From Rhodoluna lacicola (lineage in GTDB: Bacteria > Actinomycetota > Actinomycetes > Actinomycetales > Microbacteriaceae): a stretch of DNA of 64,000 nucleotides. The position numbers were made by a program, and so were the translations under genes. Positions 5,672 through 16,174 of the stretch are shown piece after piece (the first letter of the stretch is position 1; every line of letters begins with the position of its first letter). The DNA lies in contig NZ_CP007490.1 of the NCBI RefSeq assembly GCF_000699505.1, forward strand, positions 124,001 through 188,000, given 5' to 3'. The notes below the pieces were generated by a model. It worked only from the letters and a program-made list of their open reading frames with translations, was not told the DNA's origin and ran no database searches.

Positions 5672-6366
5672 TATGCGTTTACCAAACTGTTGATTACTGA
5701 TGTGAAGAATTTAAGACCGTCAACTCCTGAGCGCATTGCGATCTTGGTGTCTGGACCAAAGCCAGGCTCAACCGCGTGTTCAGGGTGAGGCATTAGACCA
5801 ACAACGTTGCCACGCTCGTTGCGAAGACCGGCGATGTCGTTCATTGAACCATTCGGGTTTACCTCTTTATAGCGGAAGGTAATTAGTCCTTCGCCTTCTA
5901 GGCGCTTCAGAGTTTCATCGGTTGCGATGTAACCACCCTCACCGTTCTTAAGTGGAATGGTGATTTCTTCGTTCAGGCTGAATTGATTAGTCCACGCGGT
6001 GGTGTTTGACTCAACGATAAGTTTTTGATCGCGGCAAATGAAGTGCTGGTGTTCGTTGCGAATTAGTCCGCCAGGTAGCAGGTGTGATTCCACAAGAACC
6101 TGGAAGCCGTTGCAAATACCAAGAACTGGAAGGCCGCCCTTTGCTGCCTTGATGATTGATTCCATAACCGGAGCCTGTGCTGCGATTGCGCCACAGCGAA
6201 GGTAGTCGCCGTATGAGAATCCACCAGGAAGCACAACTGCATCAACCTTGTGCAGGTTGGTGTCTGCGTGCCAAAGGCTTACGGCCTCGCCGCCAGCTAG
6301 GCGAACAGCGCGTGCTGCATCGCGGTCATCAAGGGTGCCAGGAAAGGTGACTACACCAATCTTCAT
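5671..6366 (-). CDS. purQ: phosphoribosylformylglycinamidine synthase, glutaminase subunit PurQ
   Basis: A 231-residue class I glutamine amidotransferase that releases ammonia for PurL. The nucleophile is Cys85 in the elbow GICNGFQ, and the His-Glu pair is in the C-terminal PHPEHA. The N-terminal [15 protein letters not shown] is typical of actinobacterial PurQ. It lies 12 bases after purS and overlaps purL by one base, so all three subunits come from one transcript, matching the known 1:1:2-type PurL/PurQ/PurS complex. Confidence 0.97.
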
Positions 6367-6378
6367 GTTCGGCGCCCC

Positions 6379-6627
6379 TTAGTTTTCTGAAGAGATCTTG
6401 ACGACGTCTTCGATGACACCGTTTGACAGGAAGCCTTCACCGATTTCGCGGGCCTCTTCGAGGTCTTTATCGGTGATTGGACGATCAAAGTGAAGCTCAA
6501 TGCGCTTGCCAATGCGGACGGCGGTGATGTCTTTGTGGCCCTTGCGGTGCAGGGCGTTGTTTACAGACTTGCCGGCTGGGTCAAGAAGGACCTCTTTTGG
6601 CATAACTTCGACGATGATCTTTGGCAT
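6379..6627 (-). CDS. purS: phosphoribosylformylglycinamidine synthase subunit PurS
   Basis: An 82-residue PurS protein (MPKIIVEVMPKEVLLDPAGK at the start; later VRIGKRIELHF). In the small-type FGAM synthase it bridges PurL and PurQ and helps channel ammonia. It is the first gene of the minus-strand purSQL operon; the promoter should lie in the 6628-6765 gap, where I see no clear box. Confidence 0.95.
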   Translation of the reverse strand: MPKIIVEVMPKEVLLDPAGKSVNNALHRKGHKDITAVRIGKRIELHFDRPITDKDLEEAREIGEGFLSNGVIEDVVKISSEN

Positions 6628-6769
6628 GTTTGCTCCGATTGTTGGGAGTTTGCGGGGGCGGCTTTAAGGGCCGTTTTTGGTGATTTTTGGTGTCGACGTC
6701 GTTGCCGGACACCTTTATTTTACTGGGGTCTAGGCCGGTGCTCTGGACGGTAGACAGATGTCGGTGTGA

Positions 6770-6790
6770 TGTACATACTTAAGTACATGA
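6770..6790. promoter_or_regulatory. palindromic operator candidate at the toxin-antitoxin start
   Basis: ATGTACAT and GTACAT half-elements surround a perfect 10-bp palindrome TACTTAAGTA at 6776-6785, directly before and overlapping the ATG at 6787. Phd/YefM antitoxins repress their own operon by binding such palindromes. The position supports 6787 as the start and suggests a leaderless or very short-leader message, since no Shine-Dalgarno is visible. Confidence 0.5.
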
Positions 6791-7086
6791 AGTATTTTTC
6801 TGTGGCCGAAGCCAGGGCCAAACTGGCTGCGATTCTGGATTCTGCTGTTAAATCACGCGAACGCACAGTTATCACCAGAAATGGTGAACCTGCCGCCGTG
6901 ATCATGTCTTTGGACGACTATGAGTCCATGAATGAAACCTTAGACATACTGGCCGATCCCGAGCTAGCAATAGATTTGCTGACGTACCTGCAAAACCCAG
7001 ACGCCGAAGAGACCTTCACCTTGGAGCAAGTTCAAGCCGAAATAGAAGCACGTCGAAACGGCGAGGGTAATCGTGAAGCAGTATGA
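6787..7086 (+). CDS. Phd/YefM-type antitoxin
   Basis: A 99-residue protein starting MKYFSVAEARAKLAAIL, with ERTVITRNGEPAAVIMSLDDYESM, the compact DNA-binding fold of Phd/YefM antitoxins; the acidic C-terminal half would wrap the toxin. Upstream in-frame GTG 6766 and ATG 6769 are possible starts, but family N-termini begin near 6787. The toxin gene starts inside its 3' end (14-base overlap). Autoregulation through the palindrome at 6770-6790 is likely. Confidence 0.85.
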   Translation: MKYFSVAEARAKLAAILDSAVKSRERTVITRNGEPAAVIMSLDDYESMNETLDILADPELAIDLLTYLQNPDAEETFTLEQVQAEIEARRNGEGNREAV

Positions 7087-7360
7087 GCTAAGGCTTCGCG
7101 GTAAGGCTAAATTGGCCCTCGCCGAAAAGGTGCCGGCTAAATTAGTGGACGTCATTACCTATTTCATCTACGGGCCCCTTTTAGAAAACCCCCGTCGTGT
7201 TGGCAAGGCACTAGATTCGCCATTTTTAGGTTGTTACGCCGCAAGGCGTGGTGATTACCGGGTGATTTACCTAATTGATGACGAAAAATCCAGGATTACC
7301 GTGCTTGATGTCTCTCATAGATCCCACGTCTACGCCGTAAAGCTCGCAGATCGAGATTAG
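7073..7360 (+). CDS. RelE/ParE-superfamily toxin
   Basis: A 95-residue protein: short N-terminal helices, NPRRVGKAL, then RRGDYRVIYLIDDEKSRITVLDVSHRSHVY, the sheet and C-terminal His/Tyr of RelE-type ribosome-dependent mRNA interferases. The start is GTG 7073, inside the antitoxin gene, with GAGGG as ribosome site. Gene order antitoxin-toxin and tight overlap support a type II system. Whether it cuts mRNA (RelE) or poisons gyrase (ParE) cannot be told from sequence, though the basic and His residues favour RelE. Confidence 0.85.
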   Translation: MKQYELRLRGKAKLALAEKVPAKLVDVITYFIYGPLLENPRRVGKALDSPFLGCYAARRGDYRVIYLIDDEKSRITVLDVSHRSHVYAVKLADRD

Positions 7361-7408
7361 ACCGGTCTAAATAGGGTGCTGACCTCGCTATTTTTAGGGG
7401 TATTTCTG

Positions 7409-7441
7409 AACATTTGATACCTTTAAGGGATCAAAAATGTT
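7409..7441. promoter_or_regulatory. inverted repeat upstream of the unknown gene
   Basis: AACATTTGATACC (7409-7421) pairs with GGGATCAAAAATGTT (7427-7441) around TTTAA; the core TTGAT..ATCAA is symmetric at 7414-7434. It sits just before the next reading frame with no T-run after it, so an operator or leader hairpin is likelier than a terminator. Confidence 0.4.
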
Positions 7442-7465
7442 GGTTTGGACGAATCATTCCAGTTC

Positions 7466-7930
7466 ATGAAGGCCAATTTGGGGGTATTTTCAGTGAACCT
7501 TTTCGGCAATCAGCCGCGAATGGATCAAGACAGCGTTGATCGCTACTTGGCCCAGGGCATTGACGACCCGCGCGCTGTGCTGAGAACCCAATCTGGCGAG
7601 TTTCACCTTAGGGTTCATGGTCAAACCAAATACGCGGTAATCCGCGAGAACCTGTTCAACACCGCCCAGCGCTCTGGCGCAAAGTTTTGGCAGGGCAAGG
7701 TTTTTCTTGAGACCAGACTGGTCACTGAATGGGGCAACACCACCAAGACCATTTTCGTGATTCTTTTCAACGATGTGCCGATCGGTGAAATTAGTGAGTT
7801 TGATTTGAAGGCCAAGGACCTTTTGGAATTCAAACTCGATGCGCGCTACTACGGGCGAGCGGTAATTCAAGACGATTTGATCGGCAATATTGTCCATATT
7901 TTTGTGGACCCGGTAAATAGACTTTCCTAG
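7466..7930 (+). CDS. protein of unknown function
   Basis: About 154 residues, not recognised. No signal peptide, membrane segment or metal motif is visible. The sequence alternates strands and helices (TRLVTEWGNTTKTIFVILF, IGEISEFDLKAKDLLEF, a C-terminal GNIVHIFVDPVNRL), suggesting a small beta-rich soluble protein. The start is uncertain: TTG 7445, ATG 7466 and GTG 7493 (which has a G-run 10 bases before it) all fit. It stands alone between the toxin pair and a bidirectional terminator, preceded by the inverted repeat at 7409-7441. Confidence 0.55.
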   Translation: MKANLGVFSVNLFGNQPRMDQDSVDRYLAQGIDDPRAVLRTQSGEFHLRVHGQTKYAVIRENLFNTAQRSGAKFWQGKVFLETRLVTEWGNTTKTIFVILFNDVPIGEISEFDLKAKDLLEFKLDARYYGRAVIQDDLIGNIVHIFVDPVNRLS

Positions 7931-7951
7931 AAAACCCACTCCTGAAATGTG

Positions 7952-7984
7952 AATAAGGTCCCGGTGGAAAAACGGGACCTTATT
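7952..7984. terminator. bidirectional intrinsic terminator
   Basis: A perfect 12-bp stem AATAAGGTCCCG (7952-7963) with CGGGACCTTATT (7973-7984) and a 9-base loop. A/T-rich flanks on both sides let it serve the plus-strand unknown gene and the converging minus-strand GNAT-AAA gene. Confidence 0.85.
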
Positions 7985-8002
7985 TGCTTAAGTTGCAGTT
8001 CG

Positions 8003-9286
8003 TTAGAGTCGGCCGATGCTTTGAATATCTTGTTCGAACTCGGCGATTACCTCGTCGCTTACGGTGCGGCGAGTGTTGCTGATAGCCCAAAGGTAATGCT
8101 CTGTAGCTGTGGTGGAATTTTCTTTGGTTGCCACCTGGGTTTCGTAAATTGCTTGCTCAAGTGCTCGCTGCGATGCTTTGCGTGCGGCGTACTCGATGTC
8201 GGCGGGTGAAAAACCCTCACTGCGCTTTACCAGTTCTGCAACATCAATACTTTCAAGTGCCAGTGCTGGAATGTAGCGTGACCAAATTGAGTGACGTGCC
8301 TCGGCATCTGGCAAACCGATAGGAATAACGTAATCAAAACGTCCGTGGCGAAGGAAAGCATCGTCAAGTGCGCGAATGTAATTAGTAGCCACAATAAGTA
8401 GGTGCCCTGGCTTTTCGCGGAAGGTTGGAATTAACTTCAGCAGTTCGTTGGTGACGCCCTGGGTTGGTGACGGTGGGTCACCTTTTCGCTTTGAGGCAAT
8501 TTCTTCAACCTCGTCAATGAAAACCACAACGTTCTCTAGATCATCAATCGAGTTAAAGATTTCGCGAAGCCCGCCGGCTAATCCGTTCTGATCTCCCGCG
8601 AGTCTTGAGGGAAAGACTTCAACAAATGGCCAGTTGAGTCTTGATGCCACCGCTTTAGCGAATGTGGTTTTACCGGTTCCAGGCGGACCAAACAAAACAA
8701 TCGCCTTTGGCGGTTCGACTCCGAATGTCTCGGCCAGTGCGGCATCTGAAAGTGGTAGCACCAGTCGGCGCTCCAACAATTCTTTTTCATTTTTCATGCC
8801 GGCGATTTTGCCCCAGAGGTTTCTTGGCATCAGTGCACCGCCAAGATTTTTGAGCACCTCGCGCTCCTGCTCACTCACCGATACCGGGCGTTCAAAATAG
8901 TTCAGGTGCTTCAGAGCTTGGAAGCCAGCTTTTTCTAGGACGCCACTCTTGCCGTCATCGGCAACCAGCATGGACATCTTGGTAATGCCGGCCTTAGACA
9001 TCTCAATTTCAAGTTCACCCAATAGGCGTCCGCCCAAACCTTGCCCCTGATGTGATTGGGCAACGGTTAGCAAGACAACCCAGCCCTGTTCGTGTGCAGC
9101 GCGGCCCACGGCGGTGCCAATAACTAGATCGCCATCGCAGGCAACAATTGCAAAGTCTTTGGTGCACGACGCAAGTACTTCAGCCAGTGAGTAAACCGGT
9201 TCAAAACCTGCGTTTCGCGCTTCGTCCCAGAGGGCGAGCAGGGCATCGGTGTCTACTGGCTGGAAATTGCGGAATCTGATGCTCAT
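8003..9286 (-). CDS. fusion of a GNAT acetyltransferase and a FtsH/p97-like AAA+ ATPase
   Basis: A 427-residue two-domain protein. Residues 1 to about 135 are a GNAT domain with the acetyl-CoA loop QGQGLGGRLL at 80-89. Residues about 155-427 are an AAA+ module: Walker A GPPGTGKT 200-207, Walker B VVFIDEVEE 254-262, sensor-1 Asn in VATNY at 299-303, and arginines in FLRHGRFD. The C-terminal small domain (GFSPADIEYAARKASQRAL) resembles FtsH, proteasomal and Vps4 ATPases. No protease or membrane part is attached. A plausible role is ATP-driven remodelling of proteins that the GNAT part acetylates or recognises, but the substrate is unknown. The gene is monocistronic. Confidence 0.85.
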   Translation of the reverse strand: MSIRFRNFQPVDTDALLALWDEARNAGFEPVYSLAEVLASCTKDFAIVACDGDLVIGTAVGRAAHEQGWVVLLTVAQSHQGQGLGGRLLGELEIEMSKAGITKMSMLVADDGKSGVLEKAGFQALKHLNYFERPVSVSEQEREVLKNLGGALMPRNLWGKIAGMKNEKELLERRLVLPLSDAALAETFGVEPPKAIVLFGPPGTGKTTFAKAVASRLNWPFVEVFPSRLAGDQNGLAGGLREIFNSIDDLENVVVFIDEVEEIASKRKGDPPSPTQGVTNELLKLIPTFREKPGHLLIVATNYIRALDDAFLRHGRFDYVIPIGLPDAEARHSIWSRYIPALALESIDVAELVKRSEGFSPADIEYAARKASQRALEQAIYETQVATKENSTTATEHYLWAISNTRRTVSDEVIAEFEQDIQSIGRL

Positions 9287-9318
9287 GGACCACTCCTTCG
9301 TGGGTATGGCTATAACAA

Positions 9319-10953
9319 CTAGTGTGCCAGTGATTCCATTCCTGCTGCCCAGGTGAGGTAGCCGCCGTCAAGGTTGCGCACCTTGGCGCCATTGGCCTTG
9401 AGGATCTGCGTTGCTATGTGGCCGCGCTGGCCAACCTGGCAGTAAACCACCACGTCTTCTACTTGGATTTCGCTTAGCCGATCGCGAAGTTCTTCAACTG
9501 GAATGTTGACCGTGCCCGGGATGTTTGCGAAGCCATGTTCGCCAGCCGAACGCACATCAACAACCTGAGCCCCATTGGCGCGGGCGGCCTCTAACTGGTG
9601 CCACTGCACGGTTGGGGTGGTGCCGTTGAAAACGTTGTTGCCAACGTAGCCGGCGATGTTTATGGCGTCTTTAGCTGAACCAAATTGTGGTGCGTAGGCC
9701 AGCTCAAGATCCATTAGGTCGTCAATGGTTAACCCGCCATGCATTGCTGTGGCAATTACATCAATACGTTTATCAACACCATCCTCACCGTTTGCCTGAG
9801 CACCCAGAATCTTGCCGGTTAGCGGATCAAAAAGTACCTTCATGGATAGGCGCTTTGAACCCGGGTAGTAACCCGCGTGATTGTTTGGGTGGATGTGAAT
9901 TATTTCGTGAGCGATGCCGGCTTTCTTTGCGGCTCTTTCACTTAGGCCAGTGATTCCAACCGCGTGACCGAATGCTCCAAGAATTACAGTGCCCGTTGCG
10001 TTGTGAGCGCGAACTTCACGACCGGCGATTACGTCTGCGATTAGGCGGCCGTGACGATTAGCCAAGTTTGCCAGCGGAACAAGAGTTTGCTCGCCGGTTA
10101 GTTGACCGTGCTTTTCAACAGCATCACCGGCTGCAAAAATATTGGGGTCGCTGGTGCGCTGTTGGTCATCAACCCAGAGCCCACCGGTGCTTCCTATTTT
10201 TAGCCCGGCAGCTTTGGCAAGTGAGTTGTCAGGATCAACACCCGCCGCGGTGAAGACTAACCCGGCATCAATCTTGCGACCATCTTTTAGAACAACCTGG
10301 TCTTTGGTGATGTGATCTGCTTCTGCGTTCAAAATAATTTTTACGCCGTGCTTTTCAAGTTTTGCCTGCAGTGGCTGAACCATCTCTGGATCAAACTGAC
10401 CAAGAATGCTGTTGCTGCGTTGAATGATTGTCACTGGGATATCTATGTGGCGAATGTTTTCAGCAAGTTCAATGCCGATGAATCCGGCACCAAGAATCGC
10501 CACAGTTTTGTTCTCAGCGTCTTGTAGCGCTTGCTTAACTGAATCAGCGTCAGTTACGTTTCGCAACCAAAGGGCGCGTTCGATGCCAGGCACATCAAGT
10601 TTGCGCGGGCGAGCGCCGGTTGCAATCACTAACTTGTCGTATGTGTCATTGGTGATTTTGCCGGTTGCTAGGTTCTTTACCTCAACGGTCTTTGCTTCGC
10701 GATTGATTGCGGTGACCATGTGCTGAACCTTGGCCTTGATGCGGAATCTGTTCCACAGAGCATCAGGCGTTTGCAGTAGAAGATTGTCGCGGCGTGAAAT
10801 GACATCGCTCACAAAGTAGGGAAGGCCGCAGTTGGCGTAGCTGACGTGTTCGCTCATTTCGTAGACGGTAATTTCAGCTTGCTCATCTAGGCGGCGAAGT
10901 CGGGCAGCAGCTGACATTCCAGAGGCAACGCCTCCAATAATTACAACCTTCAT
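9319..10953 (-). CDS. CoA-disulfide reductase-like flavoprotein with C-terminal rhodanese domain
   Basis: 544 residues. Residues 1 to about 440 form an FAD/NAD(P)H disulfide reductase of the CoADR group (GGVASGMSAAARLRR, active-site Cys42 in SYANCGLPYF, NAD loop ILGAGFIGIELAE, FAD loop FAAGDAVE). Residues about 455-544 are a rhodanese domain with catalytic Cys505 in VVYCQVGQRG. Such CoADR-rhodanese proteins reduce CoA-persulfide or polysulfide. The gene lies two bases after a CstR-like repressor and is divergent from a rhodanese lipoprotein, which supports a sulfane-sulfur role. NADH-oxidase activity is the alternative. Confidence 0.88.
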   Translation of the reverse strand: MKVVIIGGVASGMSAAARLRRLDEQAEITVYEMSEHVSYANCGLPYFVSDVISRRDNLLLQTPDALWNRFRIKAKVQHMVTAINREAKTVEVKNLATGKITNDTYDKLVIATGARPRKLDVPGIERALWLRNVTDADSVKQALQDAENKTVAILGAGFIGIELAENIRHIDIPVTIIQRSNSILGQFDPEMVQPLQAKLEKHGVKIILNAEADHITKDQVVLKDGRKIDAGLVFTAAGVDPDNSLAKAAGLKIGSTGGLWVDDQQRTSDPNIFAAGDAVEKHGQLTGEQTLVPLANLANRHGRLIADVIAGREVRAHNATGTVILGAFGHAVGITGLSERAAKKAGIAHEIIHIHPNNHAGYYPGSKRLSMKVLFDPLTGKILGAQANGEDGVDKRIDVIATAMHGGLTIDDLMDLELAYAPQFGSAKDAINIAGYVGNNVFNGTTPTVQWHQLEAARANGAQVVDVRSAGEHGFANIPGTVNIPVEELRDRLSEIQVEDVVVYCQVGQRGHIATQILKANGAKVRNLDGGYLTWAAGMESLAH

Positions 10954-10955
10954 AA

Positions 10956-11213
10956 TTAGGCCAGAGACATGAACGCTTTTTCAAGCGCCTCACGGTTCTT
11001 GACTCCCTTGGCATCTGAGCCACAGTGCTGCATGCCAGTAGAGATGATGGTGAAGCCGGCGCGGGTTAGCGCTGTGTTGGCAGCCGCCAATTGGGTCAGC
11101 AGCTCTGTGCAGTCGCGACCCTCGTCAAGCATCTTTACGATTCCAGCGATTTGACCCTGAACTCGGACCAAACGATTTCTTGCGGCTTTTAACTCTTCTG
11201 GTTGAATTTTCAT
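10956..11213 (-). CDS. cstR: CsoR-family repressor, CstR-like persulfide sensor
   Basis: An 85-residue all-helical DUF156 protein (LKAARNRLVRVQGQIAGIVKM). The two conserved cysteines are present, Cys35 in GRDCTELL and Cys64 in MQHCG, 29 residues apart. The residue at the CsoR copper-ligand His position (60) is Gly. This Cys-x28-Cys pattern without the His is that of CstR, which senses persulfides, rather than copper-binding CsoR; His63 next to Cys64 is a caveat. It forms an operon with the CoADR-rhodanese gene and faces the rhodanese lipoprotein gene across a perfect palindrome at 11222-11241. Confidence 0.82.
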   Translation of the reverse strand: MKIQPEELKAARNRLVRVQGQIAGIVKMLDEGRDCTELLTQLAAANTALTRAGFTIISTGMQHCGSDAKGVKNREALEKAFMSLA

Positions 11214-11221
11214 AATTTTAA

Positions 11222-11241
11222 GTATACCCTAGGGGGTATAC
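11222..11241. promoter_or_regulatory. CsoR/CstR-type operator palindrome
   Basis: A perfect inverted repeat GTATACCC-TAGG-GGGTATAC in the 43-base gap between the divergent repressor and lipoprotein genes. The C-tract/G-tract arms match the GC-rich operators of CsoR-family repressors. One site can control both transcripts. Confidence 0.8.
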
Positions 11242-11256
11242 GAAAGGAAGACGAAA

Positions 11257-11628
11257 ATGTCTAAACTCTTCAAGTTTCTAGCAGCATCACTAATTGCGGT
11301 TTTTGCTGTTGGTTCACTTAGCGCCTGTTCAACATCGGCACCGGTTGACATGAGCACCGTTGCAGAAGTTATTGACGTTCGCACCCCAGAGGAAACCGCG
11401 GCTGGTTACCTAGAGGGCGCTCTGCTGTTTGACATCAATGGCGGAAATTTTGCCGAGCAAATCAGCACTCTTGATAAGTCAGCCAACTATTTCATTTACT
11501 GCCGTTCGGGTAATCGCGCCGGTGGCGCTATCGACCAGATGAAGGCCGCCGGTTTCACGGGTGTGCTCACAAATGGTGGTTCATTGGCTGAAGCGGCTAG
11601 TGCCACCGGTCTAGCGATAGTTCAGTAG
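11257..11628 (+). CDS. rhodanese-like lipoprotein
   Basis: 123 residues. A signal peptide ends in the lipobox LSAC with Cys24, so the protein is anchored outside the membrane. A single rhodanese domain follows: EVIDVRTPEE, then the active-site loop YCRSGNRAG with catalytic Cys82. It would transfer sulfane sulfur at the cell surface. It starts 15 bases after the CstR-type operator (ribosome site AAAGGAAG) and is followed closely by two small Cys-rich genes, probably in the same transcript. Confidence 0.85.
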   Translation: MSKLFKFLAASLIAVFAVGSLSACSTSAPVDMSTVAEVIDVRTPEETAAGYLEGALLFDINGGNFAEQISTLDKSANYFIYCRSGNRAGGAIDQMKAAGFTGVLTNGGSLAEAASATGLAIVQ

Positions 11629-11639
11629 GGGCGGCAAGC

Positions 11640-11807
11640 ATGTGCTCAAAAGTCACCTGCCGCAAGTGTGGTAAAGCAACCTGGTCCGGCTGTGGCCAGC
11701 ACGTAAACGAAGTGATGCGCGGCATTCCAAAATCACAACAGTGTGCCGGCCACGCTAATGATCCAAAAGAACCTGGATTTTTCGCACGTCTATTTGGCAA
11801 GAAGTAA
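11640..11807 (+). CDS. small Cys-rich zinc-ribbon-like protein (55 aa)
   Basis: A 55-residue protein beginning MCSKVTCRKCGKATWSGCGQHV. Cysteines at 2, 7, 10, 18 and 35 and His at 21 and 38 suggest a small zinc-binding knuckle. The TW-SGCG-H core recurs in the next gene. The C-terminus ends in the basic GFFARLFGKK, which could be an amphipathic membrane-contact tail. ATG 11640 lies 11 bases after the rhodanese lipoprotein stop, with GGGGCGG before it. Function unknown; context suggests a sulfur or metal role. Confidence 0.75.
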   Translation: MCSKVTCRKCGKATWSGCGQHVNEVMRGIPKSQQCAGHANDPKEPGFFARLFGKK

Positions 11808-11822
11808 GAAAGGAAAACAACC

Positions 11823-11942
11823 ATGTGTTCACCAGCTTTATGCGAGAACTGCAACAAAGTAACTTGGACAGGCTGTGGCGGTCACATTGAGGAGGCGCTA
11901 GACGGCGTTCCTCAAGATCAGCTTTGCACCTGCAATAACTAA
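11823..11942 (+). CDS. small Cys-rich zinc-ribbon-like protein, paralogue (39 aa)
   Basis: A 39-residue protein, MCSPALCENCNKVTWTGCGGHI at the start and LCTCNN at the end. It shares the CxxC, TW-GCG-H and C-terminal Cys pattern with the preceding 55-residue gene but lacks its basic tail. A good ribosome site (AAAGGAAAA) precedes ATG 11823, and a terminator follows at 11962. Six cysteines in 39 residues make structural zinc or sulfur chemistry likely. The tandem pair looks like a duplication. Confidence 0.75.
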   Translation: MCSPALCENCNKVTWTGCGGHIEEALDGVPQDQLCTCNN

Positions 11943-11961
11943 ACAGCTTTCTCAACTTAGG

Positions 11962-11991
11962 GGCCTCGAGTTATCGGGGCCTCTTTTGTTT
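11962..11991 (+). terminator. terminator of the rhodanese/mini-protein transcript
   Basis: Short stem GGCCTC (11962-11967) with GGGGCC (11976-11981), followed by TCTTTTGTTT. It lies 20 bases after the second small gene. Confidence 0.6.
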
Positions 11992-12016
11992 GGAAAATAT
12001 TTCTCCAATTTGAAAC

Positions 12017-12030
12017 TGGAAACGCTTACA
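12017..12030. promoter_or_regulatory. LacI/catabolite-type operator candidate before the PEPCK-GAPDH gene
   Basis: TGGAAACGCTTACA has the near-palindromic AAACGCTT core of LacI-family operators and fits the catabolite-response-element pattern at nearly every position. A TTGAAA hexamer ends one base before it, so a bound repressor could block a promoter. It is about 70 bases before the TTG start. Regulation by carbon status would suit gluconeogenic enzymes. The factor is not in the window. Confidence 0.4.
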
Positions 12031-12099
12031 TACTTTTGCGTTTGTTAGCCTGTAAAAGTACCCACAAAATGAAGTCTTTCAACGGCGAAAGAAGGAAAA

Positions 12100-15000
12100 T
12101 TGGGAAATCACCCACTTAAGAGCACCCTCCCGCAAGAAATCGGCCTGGAGAAGTGGGTGAATCAAGTAGCAGAGCTAACCCAGCCAGACCAAATTGTTTG
12201 GTGTGACGGCTCAGCTGCTGAGTATCAAGCTCTTTCACAAAAACTCGTTGATCGCGGTACCTTTATCCCGCTGAATCCAGCCAAGCGCCCGGAATCATTT
12301 TTGGCACGCACTGACCCGGCAGACGTTGCCCGAGTTGAAGAGCGCACCTTTATCTGTTCCGCTCAGCAGATTGATGCCGGCCCTACAAATAACTGGATGG
12401 CGCCGGATGAGATGAAAGACCTGTTGCTGCCTTTGTTTGCGGGCGCGATGCGTGGTCGAACGATGTACGTAATTCCTTTCTCGATGGGCCCAGTGAATTC
12501 GCCGCTGGCCCGTTTTGGTGTTCAGATCACCGATAGCGAGTACGTGGTTGTAAACATGCACCTGATGACCCGGGTTGATGTAGCGGTCTTTGAGCAAATT
12601 AGATCTGGTGCTAACTGGGTTGCCACCATGCACTCTGTTGGTGCGCCTAACGACAACAGTGTTTGGCCAAGTAACCCGGAAAAATACATTTCACACTTCC
12701 CTGACACTCTAGAAGTTTGGTCATTTGGATCCGGCTACGGCGGCAACGCCTTGCTGGGTAAGAAGTGCATGTCTTTGCGAATTGGTTCTGTGCTTGCTCG
12801 CCGCGAAGGTTGGTTGGCCGAGCACATGTTGATCATGCGGATGATTAGCCCGGAGGGTAAGAAGTTTCACTTCAGTGCGGCTTTTCCATCGGCTTGTGGA
12901 AAAACCAACCTGGCAATGTTGCAGCCAAGTATTCCCGGTTGGAAAGTTGAAACCCTTGGTGATGACATTGCTTGGATTGCCCAGGCGCCATCGGGGAAGC
13001 TTCGTGCAATTAATCCTGAGAACGGGTTCTTTGGCGTGGCCCCGGGAACCAGTGTTAAGACAAACCCGGTTGCTATGGAGCTGGTTGCTAAGCAAACCAT
13101 TTTCACTAACGTGGCACTTACAGCTGACGGCGATGTTTGGTGGGAGGGAATGTCTAAAGAGGTGCCAGATGGTTTGACCAATTGGCGCGGTGAGCCACAC
13201 GATAAAAATTCAGGCAAGCCTGCCGCTCACCCGAATGGCCGCTTCACATCTCCTGCGCGAAACTGCCCAACCATTTCAAGTGATTGGGACGACCCAGAGG
13301 GCGTTGAGCTAGATGCCATTATTTTTGGTGGTCGTCGTGCAAAAGATGTGCCTTTGGTGACTGAGGCATCTTCTTGGCAGCACGGTGTTTTTCTTGGTGC
13401 AACTATGGCCAGTGAGCAAACCGCTGCTGCCGAGGGCCCAGTTGGTGAAGTGCGTCGTGACCCATTTGCGATGCTGCCTTTCACCGGCTACAACATGGCT
13501 GATTACTGGAGGCACTGGCTGAGCTTTGCCGAGCGCGAGGGTGTGCAGCTGCCAAAGATCTTCCGAGTTAACTGGTTCTTGAAAAACGATGAGGGTCAAT
13601 TTGTTTGGCCCGGTTTCAGCGAGAACGCTCGTGTGCTGCGCTGGATAGCCGAACGCTTGGATGGCAAAGTTGAGGCCAACGAAACGGCCATCGGTAATTT
13701 GCCAAACCTAGCCGATCTTGGTGTTGACGAGTTAGGCCTAGACGATGCCAGCAAGCAGCAACTGTTGGCCTGGAACAAAGATGCCGTGGTGAAGGATCTG
13801 GAATCTATTCAGCGCTACCTTGGTGCCTTTGGTGAACGCACCCCAGCCGAGCTAAAGATTGAAGCGGAATCACGTTTGGCGTCGCTTAGCCCAATGTGGG
13901 AGCAATCACTAACCGCGGCCGAGGCAATGGTGCCACTGATTGGCCGCCTGTACCGCAGCAATGGAGTGTTGTTGTCTGTGCACGGTCGAACGCTGATTAA
14001 TCGCACACCGATTCAGTTGATCAAGGCCATGAAGTACGCCCGCCACATTGATGGTGAGCCGCTGGATATTCACCACGCACTGTCACTGATTAAGTTGCTT
14101 GACCGTATGGGGTTGGGCCCTGCATCAATTGACGTTGCCAGGATGCTGGCTAAGCAAAAGAGCTCAGGCCAGCAGTTGAACGAATTCGTTCGTGAAGAGT
14201 TGCGTGAGTTAGCCCAGATGGTTTCAATCATCACCGAGTCTGAGCGCGATGTTGTGCTCTACGGTTTTGGACGCATTGGCCGCCTGGTTGCAAGAATTTT
14301 GATTGCGCAAGACGGTGACCGCCGCGGTTTGAAGTTGCGTGCGATTGTTGTTCGCAAGGGTGCCGAAGATGACTTGACCAAGCGTGCAGGATTGCTTCGT
14401 CGTGATTCAGTGCACGGCATGTTTGAAGGAACCATCTCTATAAACGAGGAGCGCAATTCAATTATTGCCAATGGAAATGAAATACGAGTTATCTACTCGA
14501 ATGATCCGGCAACAGTGGATTACGAAAGCTATGGCATCAACGATGCCCTGCTGATTGATAACACCGGTATCTGGCGTGACGAGGCCGGCCTGAGCCAGCA
14601 CCTAAAGAGCAAGGGAATCTCAAAGGTTCTGCTTACCGCTCCGGGTCAAGGCAACTTGCCAAACGTGGTTTACGGTGTGAATCACAGCGAGATTACAGCC
14701 AATTCCAAAATCATCACGGCAGCTTCCTGCACCACAAACGCTATTGTTCCGGTGCTGAAAGTTTTGAACGATGCCTTTGGTGTAAACCATGGCCACGTTG
14801 AAACCGTGCACTCGTTCACCAACGATCAAAACCTGATTGACAACTACCACAAGGGTGATCGCCGAGGCCGCTCAGCGGTGTTGAACATGGTAATAACAGA
14901 AACCGGTGCGGCAAAGGCGGTTGCCAAAGCGCTTCCGGTTTTGGCCGGAAAGCTAACCGGTAATGCCATTCGCGTGCCAACCCCGGATGTGTCAATGGCC

Positions 15001-15300
15001 ATTCTGAATCTGGACTTTGCACGTGATGTTTCGCGCGAGGAGCTAAACAAAGTCTTGATGAAGGCTGCGCAGAGTCCAGAAACCCGCAACCAGGTTGATT
15101 ATGTTGAATCGCCAGAGGTTGTCTCTACGGACTTTGTTGGATCAAACCGTGCCGGAATCGTTGATGGTTTGGCAACGGTTGGTGAGGGAAATCACGGAGT
15201 TGTATACGTTTGGTACGACAACGAAAACGGTTACTCACACCAGGTTGCTCGCATCGCTGAGAAGATGATGCTGCAAGAGAGGCCGTCGTACCCCAGATAG
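12100..15300 (+). CDS. pckG-gapB: fused GTP-dependent PEP carboxykinase and GapB-type glyceraldehyde-3-phosphate dehydrogenase
   Basis: One frame of 1066 residues. Residues 1 to about 595 are a complete GTP-PEPCK (oxaloacetate + GTP to PEP + CO2): TMYVIPFSMGP, HSVGAP, the P-loop FPSACGKTNLAML with reactive Cys266 and Lys268, and FRVNWFLKNDEG. Residues about 599-1066 are a complete long GAPDH like corynebacterial GapB: the N-terminal AMVPLIGRLYRSNGV extension, NAD loop YGFGRIGR at 721-728, catalytic SCTTNA with Cys877, and WYDNENGYSHQ. No stop, frameshift or ribosome site lies between them; Met599 is the only nearby internal ATG. The start is TTG 12100 behind GAAGGA. Both halves act in gluconeogenesis. 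Fusion is seen directly; any channelling or joint regulation is inference. Confidence 0.93.
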   Translation: MGNHPLKSTLPQEIGLEKWVNQVAELTQPDQIVWCDGSAAEYQALSQKLVDRGTFIPLNPAKRPESFLARTDPADVARVEERTFICSAQQIDAGPTNNWMAPDEMKDLLLPLFAGAMRGRTMYVIPFSMGPVNSPLARFGVQITDSEYVVVNMHLMTRVDVAVFEQIRSGANWVATMHSVGAPNDNSVWPSNPEKYISHFPDTLEVWSFGSGYGGNALLGKKCMSLRIGSVLARREGWLAEHMLIMRMISPEGKKFHFSAAFPSACGKTNLAMLQPSIPGWKVETLGDDIAWIAQAPSGKLRAINPENGFFGVAPGTSVKTNPVAMELVAKQTIFTNVALTADGDVWWEGMSKEVPDGLTNWRGEPHDKNSGKPAAHPNGRFTSPARNCPTISSDWDDPEGVELDAIIFGGRRAKDVPLVTEASSWQHGVFLGATMASEQTAAAEGPVGEVRRDPFAMLPFTGYNMADYWRHWLSFAEREGVQLPKIFRVNWFLKNDEGQFVWPGFSENARVLRWIAERLDGKVEANETAIGNLPNLADLGVDELGLDDASKQQLLAWNKDAVVKDLESIQRYLGAFGERTPAELKIEAESRLASLSPMWEQSLTAAEAMVPLIGRLYRSNGVLLSVHGRTLINRTPIQLIKAMKYARHIDGEPLDIHHALSLIKLLDRMGLGPASIDVARMLAKQKSSGQQLNEFVREELRELAQMVSIITESERDVVLYGFGRIGRLVARILIAQDGDRRGLKLRAIVVRKGAEDDLTKRAGLLRRDSVHGMFEGTISINEERNSIIANGNEIRVIYSNDPATVDYESYGINDALLIDNTGIWRDEAGLSQHLKSKGISKVLLTAPGQGNLPNVVYGVNHSEITANSKIITAASCTTNAIVPVLKVLNDAFGVNHGHVETVHSFTNDQNLIDNYHKGDRRGRSAVLNMVITETGAAKAVAKALPVLAGKLTGNAIRVPTPDVSMAILNLDFARDVSREELNKVLMKAAQSPETRNQVDYVESPEVVSTDFVGSNRAGIVDGLATVGEGNHGVVYVWYDNENGYSHQVARIAEKMMLQERPSYPR

Positions 15301-15313
15301 TTTCTGGTTTCGC

Positions 15314-16174
15314 TTAGGAAATCTCAGAAGTTAGTCGCTCAACCAGTTCGGCATATTTGTCGGCTGTTTGGGCGACTATTTCTTTGGGTAGCTCAGGCGG
15401 AGTGCCTTGCTGATTCCAATTTTCGGCAAGCCAATTGCGAACGATTTGTTTGTCGAAAGAATCTTTTCTTTCACCACGATCCCAGGCCGCTTTGCTCCAG
15501 AACCTTGATGAGTCCGGGGTTAGCACTTCGTCACCCAAGGTAATCTCACCAGTTGCCGGGTCAATGCCAAATTCAAACTTGGTGTCGGCAAGAATCAGTC
15601 CGGCCTGTTCGGCAAGTTCAGATGCTCGGTTGAATACCTTGATGCTTAGGTTGCGAAGCGCGGTTGCGTTGTCTTCACCAATCAGTTTGATTACCCGCTC
15701 AAACGTAATGTTTTCGTCGTGCTCACCCATCGGTGCTTTGTAGGCGGGGGTGAAAATGGGTTCAGGAAGCTTCCCGCCAAAGTGCAAACCCTTAGGAAGT
15801 TTGATGCCACAGACTGTGCCATTGGCTTCGTATTCTTTCCAGCCGCTGCCGCTAATGTAACCGCGCACAACGCACTCGATTGGAAACATCTCAAGTTTTT
15901 TTGCGATGGTGCCACGACCTGCAACTTCTGCAGGAACTGCAATTTCATTACTGGTGTGATTTGGAACATCAAGACGATCGAACCACCAGTTGGTCAGGGT
16001 GGTTAGGTACTTGCCCTTGTTTGGGATTGCCGGTTCAAGTACGTGGTCAAAAGCGCTCACGCGATCTGAGGCAACAACCAAGATTAGGTGGGCAAGTTTT
16101 GGATCTTCTGATTCGTAAAGGTCGCGAACTTTGCCGCTATATGTGTGGGTCCAACCGCGAATTTCGATAGCCAC
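15314..16174 (-). CDS. purC: phosphoribosylaminoimidazole-succinocarboxamide synthase
   Basis: 286 residues, SAICAR synthetase, which joins aspartate to CAIR with ATP. YSGKVRDLYE near the start, LVVASDRVSAFD and ECVVRGYISGSGWKEY are diagnostic. The start is GTG 16174, overlapping the purD stop by one base (TAGTG), so purD-purC is a coupled minus-strand pair. It converges on the PEPCK-GAPDH gene with only 13 bases between stops and no clear terminator. Confidence 0.96.
   Translation of the reverse strand: MAIEIRGWTHTYSGKVRDLYESEDPKLAHLILVVASDRVSAFDHVLEPAIPNKGKYLTTLTNWWFDRLDVPNHTSNEIAVPAEVAGRGTIAKKLEMFPIECVVRGYISGSGWKEYEANGTVCGIKLPKGLHFGGKLPEPIFTPAYKAPMGEHDENITFERVIKLIGEDNATALRNLSIKVFNRASELAEQAGLILADTKFEFGIDPATGEITLGDEVLTPDSSRFWSKAAWDRGERKDSFDKQIVRNWLAENWNQQGTPPELPKEIVAQTADKYAELVERLTSEIS

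Follow-up and report, generated by a model that had tools for sequence, protein, structure and literature searches.

The window analysed here, the whole 64,000-nucleotide stretch at positions 124,001 to 188,000 of contig NZ_CP007490.1 from Rhodoluna lacicola, contains one reading frame that encodes a complete GTP-dependent phosphoenolpyruvate carboxykinase (PEPCK) followed by a complete long-form (GapB-type) glyceraldehyde-3-phosphate dehydrogenase (GAPDH). We refer to this frame as the fused pckG-gapB gene. Throughout, G000 denotes the window's own genome, other G numbers denote congener genomes and L numbers denote compared loci. The parts of the gene are as follows.

12100..15300, plus strand: fused pckG-gapB gene, TTG start, 1066 amino acids plus stop, no internal stops
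12151..12801, plus strand: PEPCK N-terminal domain, residues 18-234 (PF17297, E 1e-92)
12811..13869, plus strand: PEPCK GTP P-loop domain, residues 238-590 (PF00821, E 7e-158), with C266, K268, T269, D288 and D289 invariant in 29 aligned rows
13873..13896, plus strand: junction RLASLSPM, residues 592-599, defined by aligning the C-termini of stand-alone PEPCKs and the N-termini of stand-alone GapBs
13897..14247, plus strand: N-terminal extension of long-form GapB, residues 600-716; the PRK08289 match begins at residue 598, that to PDB 8jb1 at residue 3 of the 469-residue GapB part
14248..15297, plus strand: GAPDH core (PF00044, PF02800) with C877 and H904, located by motif and by alignment to the GapA of the same genome

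Both halves score above curated NCBIfam cut-offs. The PEPCK half (residues 13-596) matches PRK04210/NF003253 at 893 bits against a cut-off of 504 (E 8e-269, model positions 20-607 of 612), the GAPDH half (residues 598-1065) matches PRK08289/NF006139 at 732 bits against 431 (E 2e-220, model positions 11-478 of 480), and Pfam finds both PEPCK domains and both GAPDH domains. The first-pass annotation, made from the letters and their open reading frames (ORFs), had described two complete enzymes in one 1066-codon frame with a P-loop Cys266 and a catalytic Cys877, and it is borne out on each of these points. The PEPCK motifs are intact (FPSACGKTN at 262, GDDIAW at 287, and H242) and unchanged across the 29 rows; in the GAPDH half, motif positions place the Cys of SCTTN at C877 and the histidine at H904. 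We presume that C266 and the metal and nucleotide residues of PEPCK, and C877 and H904 of GAPDH, play their customary roles. The nearest solved structures are PDB 4wiu for the PEPCK half (residues 13-590) and the 488-residue PDB 8jb1 for the GAPDH half, the latter covering residues 3-460 of the GapB part, extension included. The genome, a single contig of 1,430,433 bases, has no PEPCK other than this one and, besides the fusion, encodes a separate 336-residue GapA.

In full-length match and catalytic motifs the first half resembles other GTP-dependent PEPCKs, such as that of PDB 4wiu, and the second, down to its N-terminal extension, resembles the long-form GapB of PDB 8jb1. Unlike at the other PEPCK loci compared, where GAPDH lies neither beside nor within the gene, the PEPCK C-terminus here continues into GapB, and unlike in the unfused genomes found, where GapB stands alone, the fused GapB has no start of its own. 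The halves meet at RLASLS (residues 592-597, nucleotides 13873-13890), and when the C-termini of stand-alone PEPCKs and the N-termini of stand-alone GapBs are aligned there, no separate linker domain is left between them. No Shine-Dalgarno-like 4-mer with an in-frame start near the junction is common to the three fused genes that we found, and a consensus scan detected no promoter- or terminator-like site there. Since the same uninterrupted junction is present in two other assemblies, the earlier statement that the frame runs on without a break at this point also stands.

Recurrence, distribution and genomic sites of the fusion

The two other fused genes belong to congeners. In G062, a one-contig genome, the fusion is whole (residues 3-1066, 82% identical), and in G009, a metagenome-assembled genome, residues 224-1066 are present up to the edge of contig CANGJO010000064.1 (90% identical). 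Identity to the G000 PEPCK is 349 of 371 residues in G009 and 498 of 594 in G062, and to the GAPDH core 309 of 350 and 278 of 349, respectively. In the three fused pairs synonymous sites are near-saturated (proportion of synonymous differences, pS, 0.63-0.74 in the three large parts), and the ratio of nonsynonymous to synonymous substitution rates (dN/dS) is 0.02-0.05 for PEPCK and 0.05-0.08 for the GAPDH core, which shows, as judged from substitution patterns, strong purifying selection on both catalytic halves together in three genomes. Because the same join recurs in at least two other species of the genus, the fusion is, on this comparative evidence, genuine and long-maintained and not an assembly or sequencing error.

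Within the genus the fusion was detected in three of 67 genomes (G000, G062 and G009), long GapB in five and a PEPCK match in 18, four of these 18 being incomplete (G009, G071, G035 and G017). The G071 PEPCK (79% identical) ends inside PEPCK at a contig edge, so that whether it is fused cannot be judged. Samples of the family (398 genomes), order (396) and phylum (396) yielded no additional fusion, among the matches listed for the family and at E 1e-290 or better for the order and phylum. These samples overlap, the family sample including G000 and G062 and the other two only G000; two candidates were scored per genome, and a reverse-order or strongly diverged fusion could escape such searches. 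Across 174 compared loci, with flanks mostly of ~1.5 to 5 kb, PEPCK occurs in 147 and GAPDH in 35, and the two occur together only in 8, which belong to the three fused genomes. Among the best 80 of 571 relatives in a whole-collection scan, which may omit records of or near the window's genome, both enzymes were found only in L032, the G009 contig. Separate pckG and gapB genes in all close relatives, which the first-pass annotation had named as the contrary outcome, is not what is seen, two congeners carrying the fused gene.

The three fusions lie at three different sites. In G000 the gene sits between a small ORF and purC, in G009 it is on the opposite side of the same four-ORF block, ~2.5 kb away, and in G062 it adjoins aldehyde-dehydrogenase-like genes (named by eye). 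The G000 site is occupied in G067 by a stand-alone gapB, flanked by purC and by a homologue of the ORF that precedes the fusion in the window (11257-11628). Congeners differ in the purL/purQ-purC interval: the stretch from purQ to purC, 6366-15314 in the window, is short in G016, G059, G080 and G081 and carries different gene loads in G000, G028 and G067. Fragments of the purL 3' end are repeated at 1496-1597 and again immediately beyond the left edge of the window (G000:C1:122919-123161), a pattern that would fit genomic islands inserting at purL.

Upstream region and leader motif

Four features precede the start codon.

11959..11984, plus strand: hairpin resembling a terminator, separating the gene from the one upstream (consensus scan; 11 pairs, 7 of them G-C)
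12023..12052, plus strand: stretch common to the upstream regions of the G067 stand-alone gapB and, in part, the G062 fusion (alignment of upstream regions)
12076..12091, plus strand: leader motif CTTTCAAYGRYGAAAG, an inverted repeat shortly upstream of the start codon (the only perfect match in the window)
12092..12096, plus strand: AAGGA, probable Shine-Dalgarno site before the TTG, read from the sequence

Terminator-like matches in the region are not above shuffled expectation (5 found, mean 5.5). The shared stretch at 12023..12052 is the probable promoter region, and a consensus scan found no sigma-70-like site within it.

A spacing of 6-12 bases separates the leader motif from the start codon in the G000 and G062 fusions, in pckG of G070 and G071 and in the stand-alone gapB of G067; the start of the fusion is known in two of the three fused genes, the G009 contig ending inside the gene. 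The motif occurs in 8 of 191 loci, which represent these five genes (the sites in relatives being L143:5955, L145:11110 on the minus strand, L146:7527 and L147:9860), and a search of 11 genomes returned five exact sites, all at the same five genes. Five sites with one mismatch all lie elsewhere, and the pattern reversed, as a control, was hit twice in the 11 genomes when up to one mismatch was allowed. The pckG genes of G028 and G030 lack the motif. It might serve a gluconeogenic regulon of very few genes, as an operator or as a translational element. A short RNA stem can be folded in all five leaders, one with a z score of −2.6 and the others between −1.05 and +1.17 relative to shuffles; with only one leader much stabler than shuffles, an RNA switch is not supported in preference to a binding site for a protein or simple conservation. 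A different inverted repeat, of the GGACAAAGGGGTCC type with minor variants, surrounds the probable Shine-Dalgarno site of further PEPCK genes in the genus (L004, L005, L006, L007, L008 and L115).

Probable metabolic role and proposed history of the fusion

We think it quite probable that the gene encodes a bifunctional gluconeogenic fusion, in which PEPCK and a GapB-type GAPDH are tied together by co-production and not by channelling. The product would be a single polypeptide of ~117 kDa carrying two enzymes of gluconeogenesis, the PEPCK half converting oxaloacetate and GTP to phosphoenolpyruvate (PEP) and the GapB half most likely converting 1,3-bisphosphoglycerate to glyceraldehyde-3-phosphate, with NADPH as the probable reductant; in a GAPDH-type tetramer each subunit would bring one PEPCK, four in all. 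Enolase, mutase and phosphoglycerate kinase act between the PEPCK and GAPDH reactions, and because these three steps stand between the fused enzymes direct channelling is not expected and can hardly be the advantage. The gain would instead be cross-regulation or 1:1 co-production, with the entry and reductive steps of gluconeogenesis made from one promoter and leader in a cell that has a separate GapA and no match to the PPDK_N family. A bifunctional switch, as the first-pass annotation suggested, a fixed activity ratio or altered kinetics may be further effects of the join.

The first-pass annotation had read the long GapB type as gluconeogenic, and the genus agrees with it. All five long-GapB genomes have a PEP-forming enzyme, four of them PEPCK and one a PEP synthase, and this pairing is the best evidence here that GapB acts in gluconeogenesis. 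No PPDK_N-family match was found in G000, G062 or G009 (the last 76% complete). Such matches occur in seven of the 67 genomes and are strong only in G067 (6e-122 and 6e-113, against 6e-22 to 4e-25 in the other six); the one of those six that was tested, G065 (697 residues of the 831 frame), falls below every cut-off shown. One of the two G067 proteins is a full PEP synthase (NF005057, 1240 bits, cut-off 598) and a search of G067, 93% complete, for PEPCK gave nothing at E 1e-20 or better; there is therefore another route to PEP in that genome. The second G067 protein (L213:1411-2661, minus strand, 416 residues) matches only the N-terminal part of PEP synthase and adjoins a P450-like frame (named by eye) and another frame; it may be part of a split PEP-synthase-like enzyme.

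We take the GapB of Corynebacterium glutamicum to be of the long form as well. In the accessible parts of two papers that enzyme is described as not functional in the glycolytic direction (PMC3536970) and as NADP-dependent (PMC6448238). An Arg replacing Asp at the GapB cofactor site was considered and dropped, since the GapA/GapB alignment does not bear it out: GapB has RKGAEDD where GapA has ND after the second Rossmann strand, and the alignment gaps RKGAE and still pairs an Asp.

Several points weigh against a gluconeogenic fusion held together for its function. No fusion was detected in 64 of the 67 genus genomes, so that most congeners manage without it. The direction and cofactor proposed for the GAPDH half rest on its family and on analogy with C. 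glutamicum, and PEPCK could also run towards oxaloacetate. Fructose-bisphosphatase-type (GlpX) genes are present in PEPCK-less congeners too (7 of 8 genomes searched); they do not separate PEPCK from non-PEPCK genomes and were rejected as a marker of gluconeogenesis. At the junction, 18 codons change fast (ratio of nonsynonymous to synonymous differences, pN/pS, 0.21-0.54), and G000 and G062, but not G009, share an in-frame GTG that lies within the GapB extension, 35 codons beyond the Arg of RLASLS, with GGAG 11 bases before it.

Close to an even chance must be given to a neutral join, in which the halves fold and work independently and any effect is limited to shared expression, a reading compatible with the fusion being genuine. 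The narrow distribution in the genus, the three different loci, a possible undoing in G067, the fast-changing junction codons and the three intervening enzymes all suit such a join, whereas retention of the fusion across near-saturated synonymous divergence does not, and neither does the behaviour of the GapB extension. Among 210 pairs of stand-alone GapB the extension diverges faster than the core, its distance averaging 0.425 (least 0.237) in the 18 pairs with core distances of 0.1-0.2 and 0.532 (least 0.431) in the 26 pairs at 0.2-0.25, with a range of 0.24-0.61 over these 44. The fused pairs are less divergent in the extension, at 0.207, 0.181 and 0.181 for core distances of 0.117, 0.203 and 0.197, and G067 compared with the fused genes gives 0.375-0.455 at core distances of 0.231-0.263. 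Extension/core dN ratios are 2.0 (G000-G009), 0.77 and 0.94 in the fused pairs, 2.0-2.9 for G067 against the fused genes and 1.6-3.8 in eight stand-alone pairs; the G000-G009 value falls inside the stand-alone range, and the three fused pairs are interdependent and too few for a claim. Because the extension is less divergent when fused, and faster in G067, which has no PEPCK match, there is a hint that PEPCK docks on the GapB extension, with allosteric coupling inside one tetramer between GTP-driven PEP formation and the reductive GAPDH step, the two ends of lower gluconeogenesis, as a 'bookend' control over non-consecutive steps, which we nonetheless hold to be unlikely.

As to how the fusion arose, the data suggest a single fusion event, after which G067 lost the PEPCK half, a history that we favour without regarding it as proven, as not all the evidence agrees. 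The stand-alone G067 gapB carries what looks like a pckG leader. In a GapB tree of 25 rows it groups, weakly, with G000 and G009, leaving G062 outside (bootstrap 91, SH-like approximate likelihood ratio test [SH-aLRT] 52 with all columns; 95/70 with the GAPDH core only), and the three fused GapB sequences come together in only 8% of 200 bootstrap trees. The PurL tree, from which G009 is absent, likewise groups G067 with G000 and G028 and places G062 farther out. Loss in G067 is therefore favoured by the leader together with the GapB and PurL trees. In the PEPCK tree, a quick version with 73 of 138 rows (all those from outside the whole-collection scan and 14 from that scan), the three fused PEPCKs group (SH-aLRT 98), next to G070 and G071. 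The opposite course, in which G067 keeps the ancestral state of a gapB alone at the purC site and PEPCK was inserted in front of it later, is a tentative but serious alternative: a clade of the three fused genes that excludes G067 survives the approximately unbiased test (p 0.30 in both runs), and in the GapA tree G067 pairs with G062 (80/92, not starred) and not with G000. Comparisons of the G067 GapB N-terminus with the fusion junction, made to derive its start from there, gave mixed p values (0.03, 0.04 and 0.50). Late insertion has against it the same pckG-type leader motif and the same GapB and PurL trees.

A glycolytic NADPH module, in which PEPCK would be mainly anaplerotic (PEP to oxaloacetate) and GapB would oxidise glyceraldehyde-3-phosphate for NADPH, seems improbable. 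PEPCK is reversible, which would permit it; against it, G067 has long GapB together with PEP synthase and no PEPCK match, and PEP synthase makes no oxaloacetate. The C. glutamicum reports cut both ways, the NADP dependence of its GapB (PMC6448238) fitting such a module and its failure to function in glycolysis (PMC3536970) opposing it. Finally, an assembly or sequencing error that joined two adjacent genes is scarcely credible even though all the evidence here is assembled sequence, given the same unbroken junction in two more assemblies at 82% and 90% identity and, in the 174 loci, no adjoining separate PEPCK/GAPDH pair that an error could join.

Enzyme fusions in central metabolism commonly link adjacent steps, and the present one bears on why enzymes fuse at all, be it for stoichiometry, co-regulation or allostery. 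It appears to be a new pairing within bifunctional metabolic fusions, well supported as a gene and with a predicted enzyme role. The first-pass annotation knew of no described PEPCK-GAPDH fusion, and literature searches, which lacked most subscription papers, found none either. No paper that treats Rhodoluna together with PEPCK came up. Of the Rhodoluna papers covered, PMC9753733 among them, in the text available 'carboxykinase' and 'glyceraldehyde' do not occur in PMC4156110, PMC11577799 or PMC12422013, nor do these words or 'fusion' in PMC8591293. The last paper counts gluconeogenesis-related genes among the transcripts raised by light, and in the part available does not name the fused gene. 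The nearest precedent that we have seen is the triosephosphate isomerase-GAPDH fusion of stramenopiles and other protists, in which, according to the accessible part of that paper, a complete GAPDH likewise forms the C-terminal half of a fused central-carbon enzyme and a stand-alone GAPDH inside the fused clade is also read as secondary loss; the partners there catalyse consecutive steps and have predicted mitochondrial signals (PMC3527533). The Rhodoluna fusion, in contrast, is bacterial, has PEPCK as partner and spans three intervening reactions. R. lacicola is cultivated and, in the portion of PMC11577799 available, is described as naturally transformable with working gene replacement, so the question is open to direct experiment, and its relatives differ naturally in this respect, some having the fusion, some PEPCK alone and one GapB alongside PEP synthase.

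Two further stretches of the window deserve mention. On the minus strand, 8003-9286 is another joined architecture, a 427-residue frame with a GNAT acetyltransferase followed by an AAA ATPase domain, and 9319-11213, also on the minus strand, holds a disulphide oxidoreductase with a C-terminal rhodanese domain, adjacent to a metal-sensitive transcriptional repressor.

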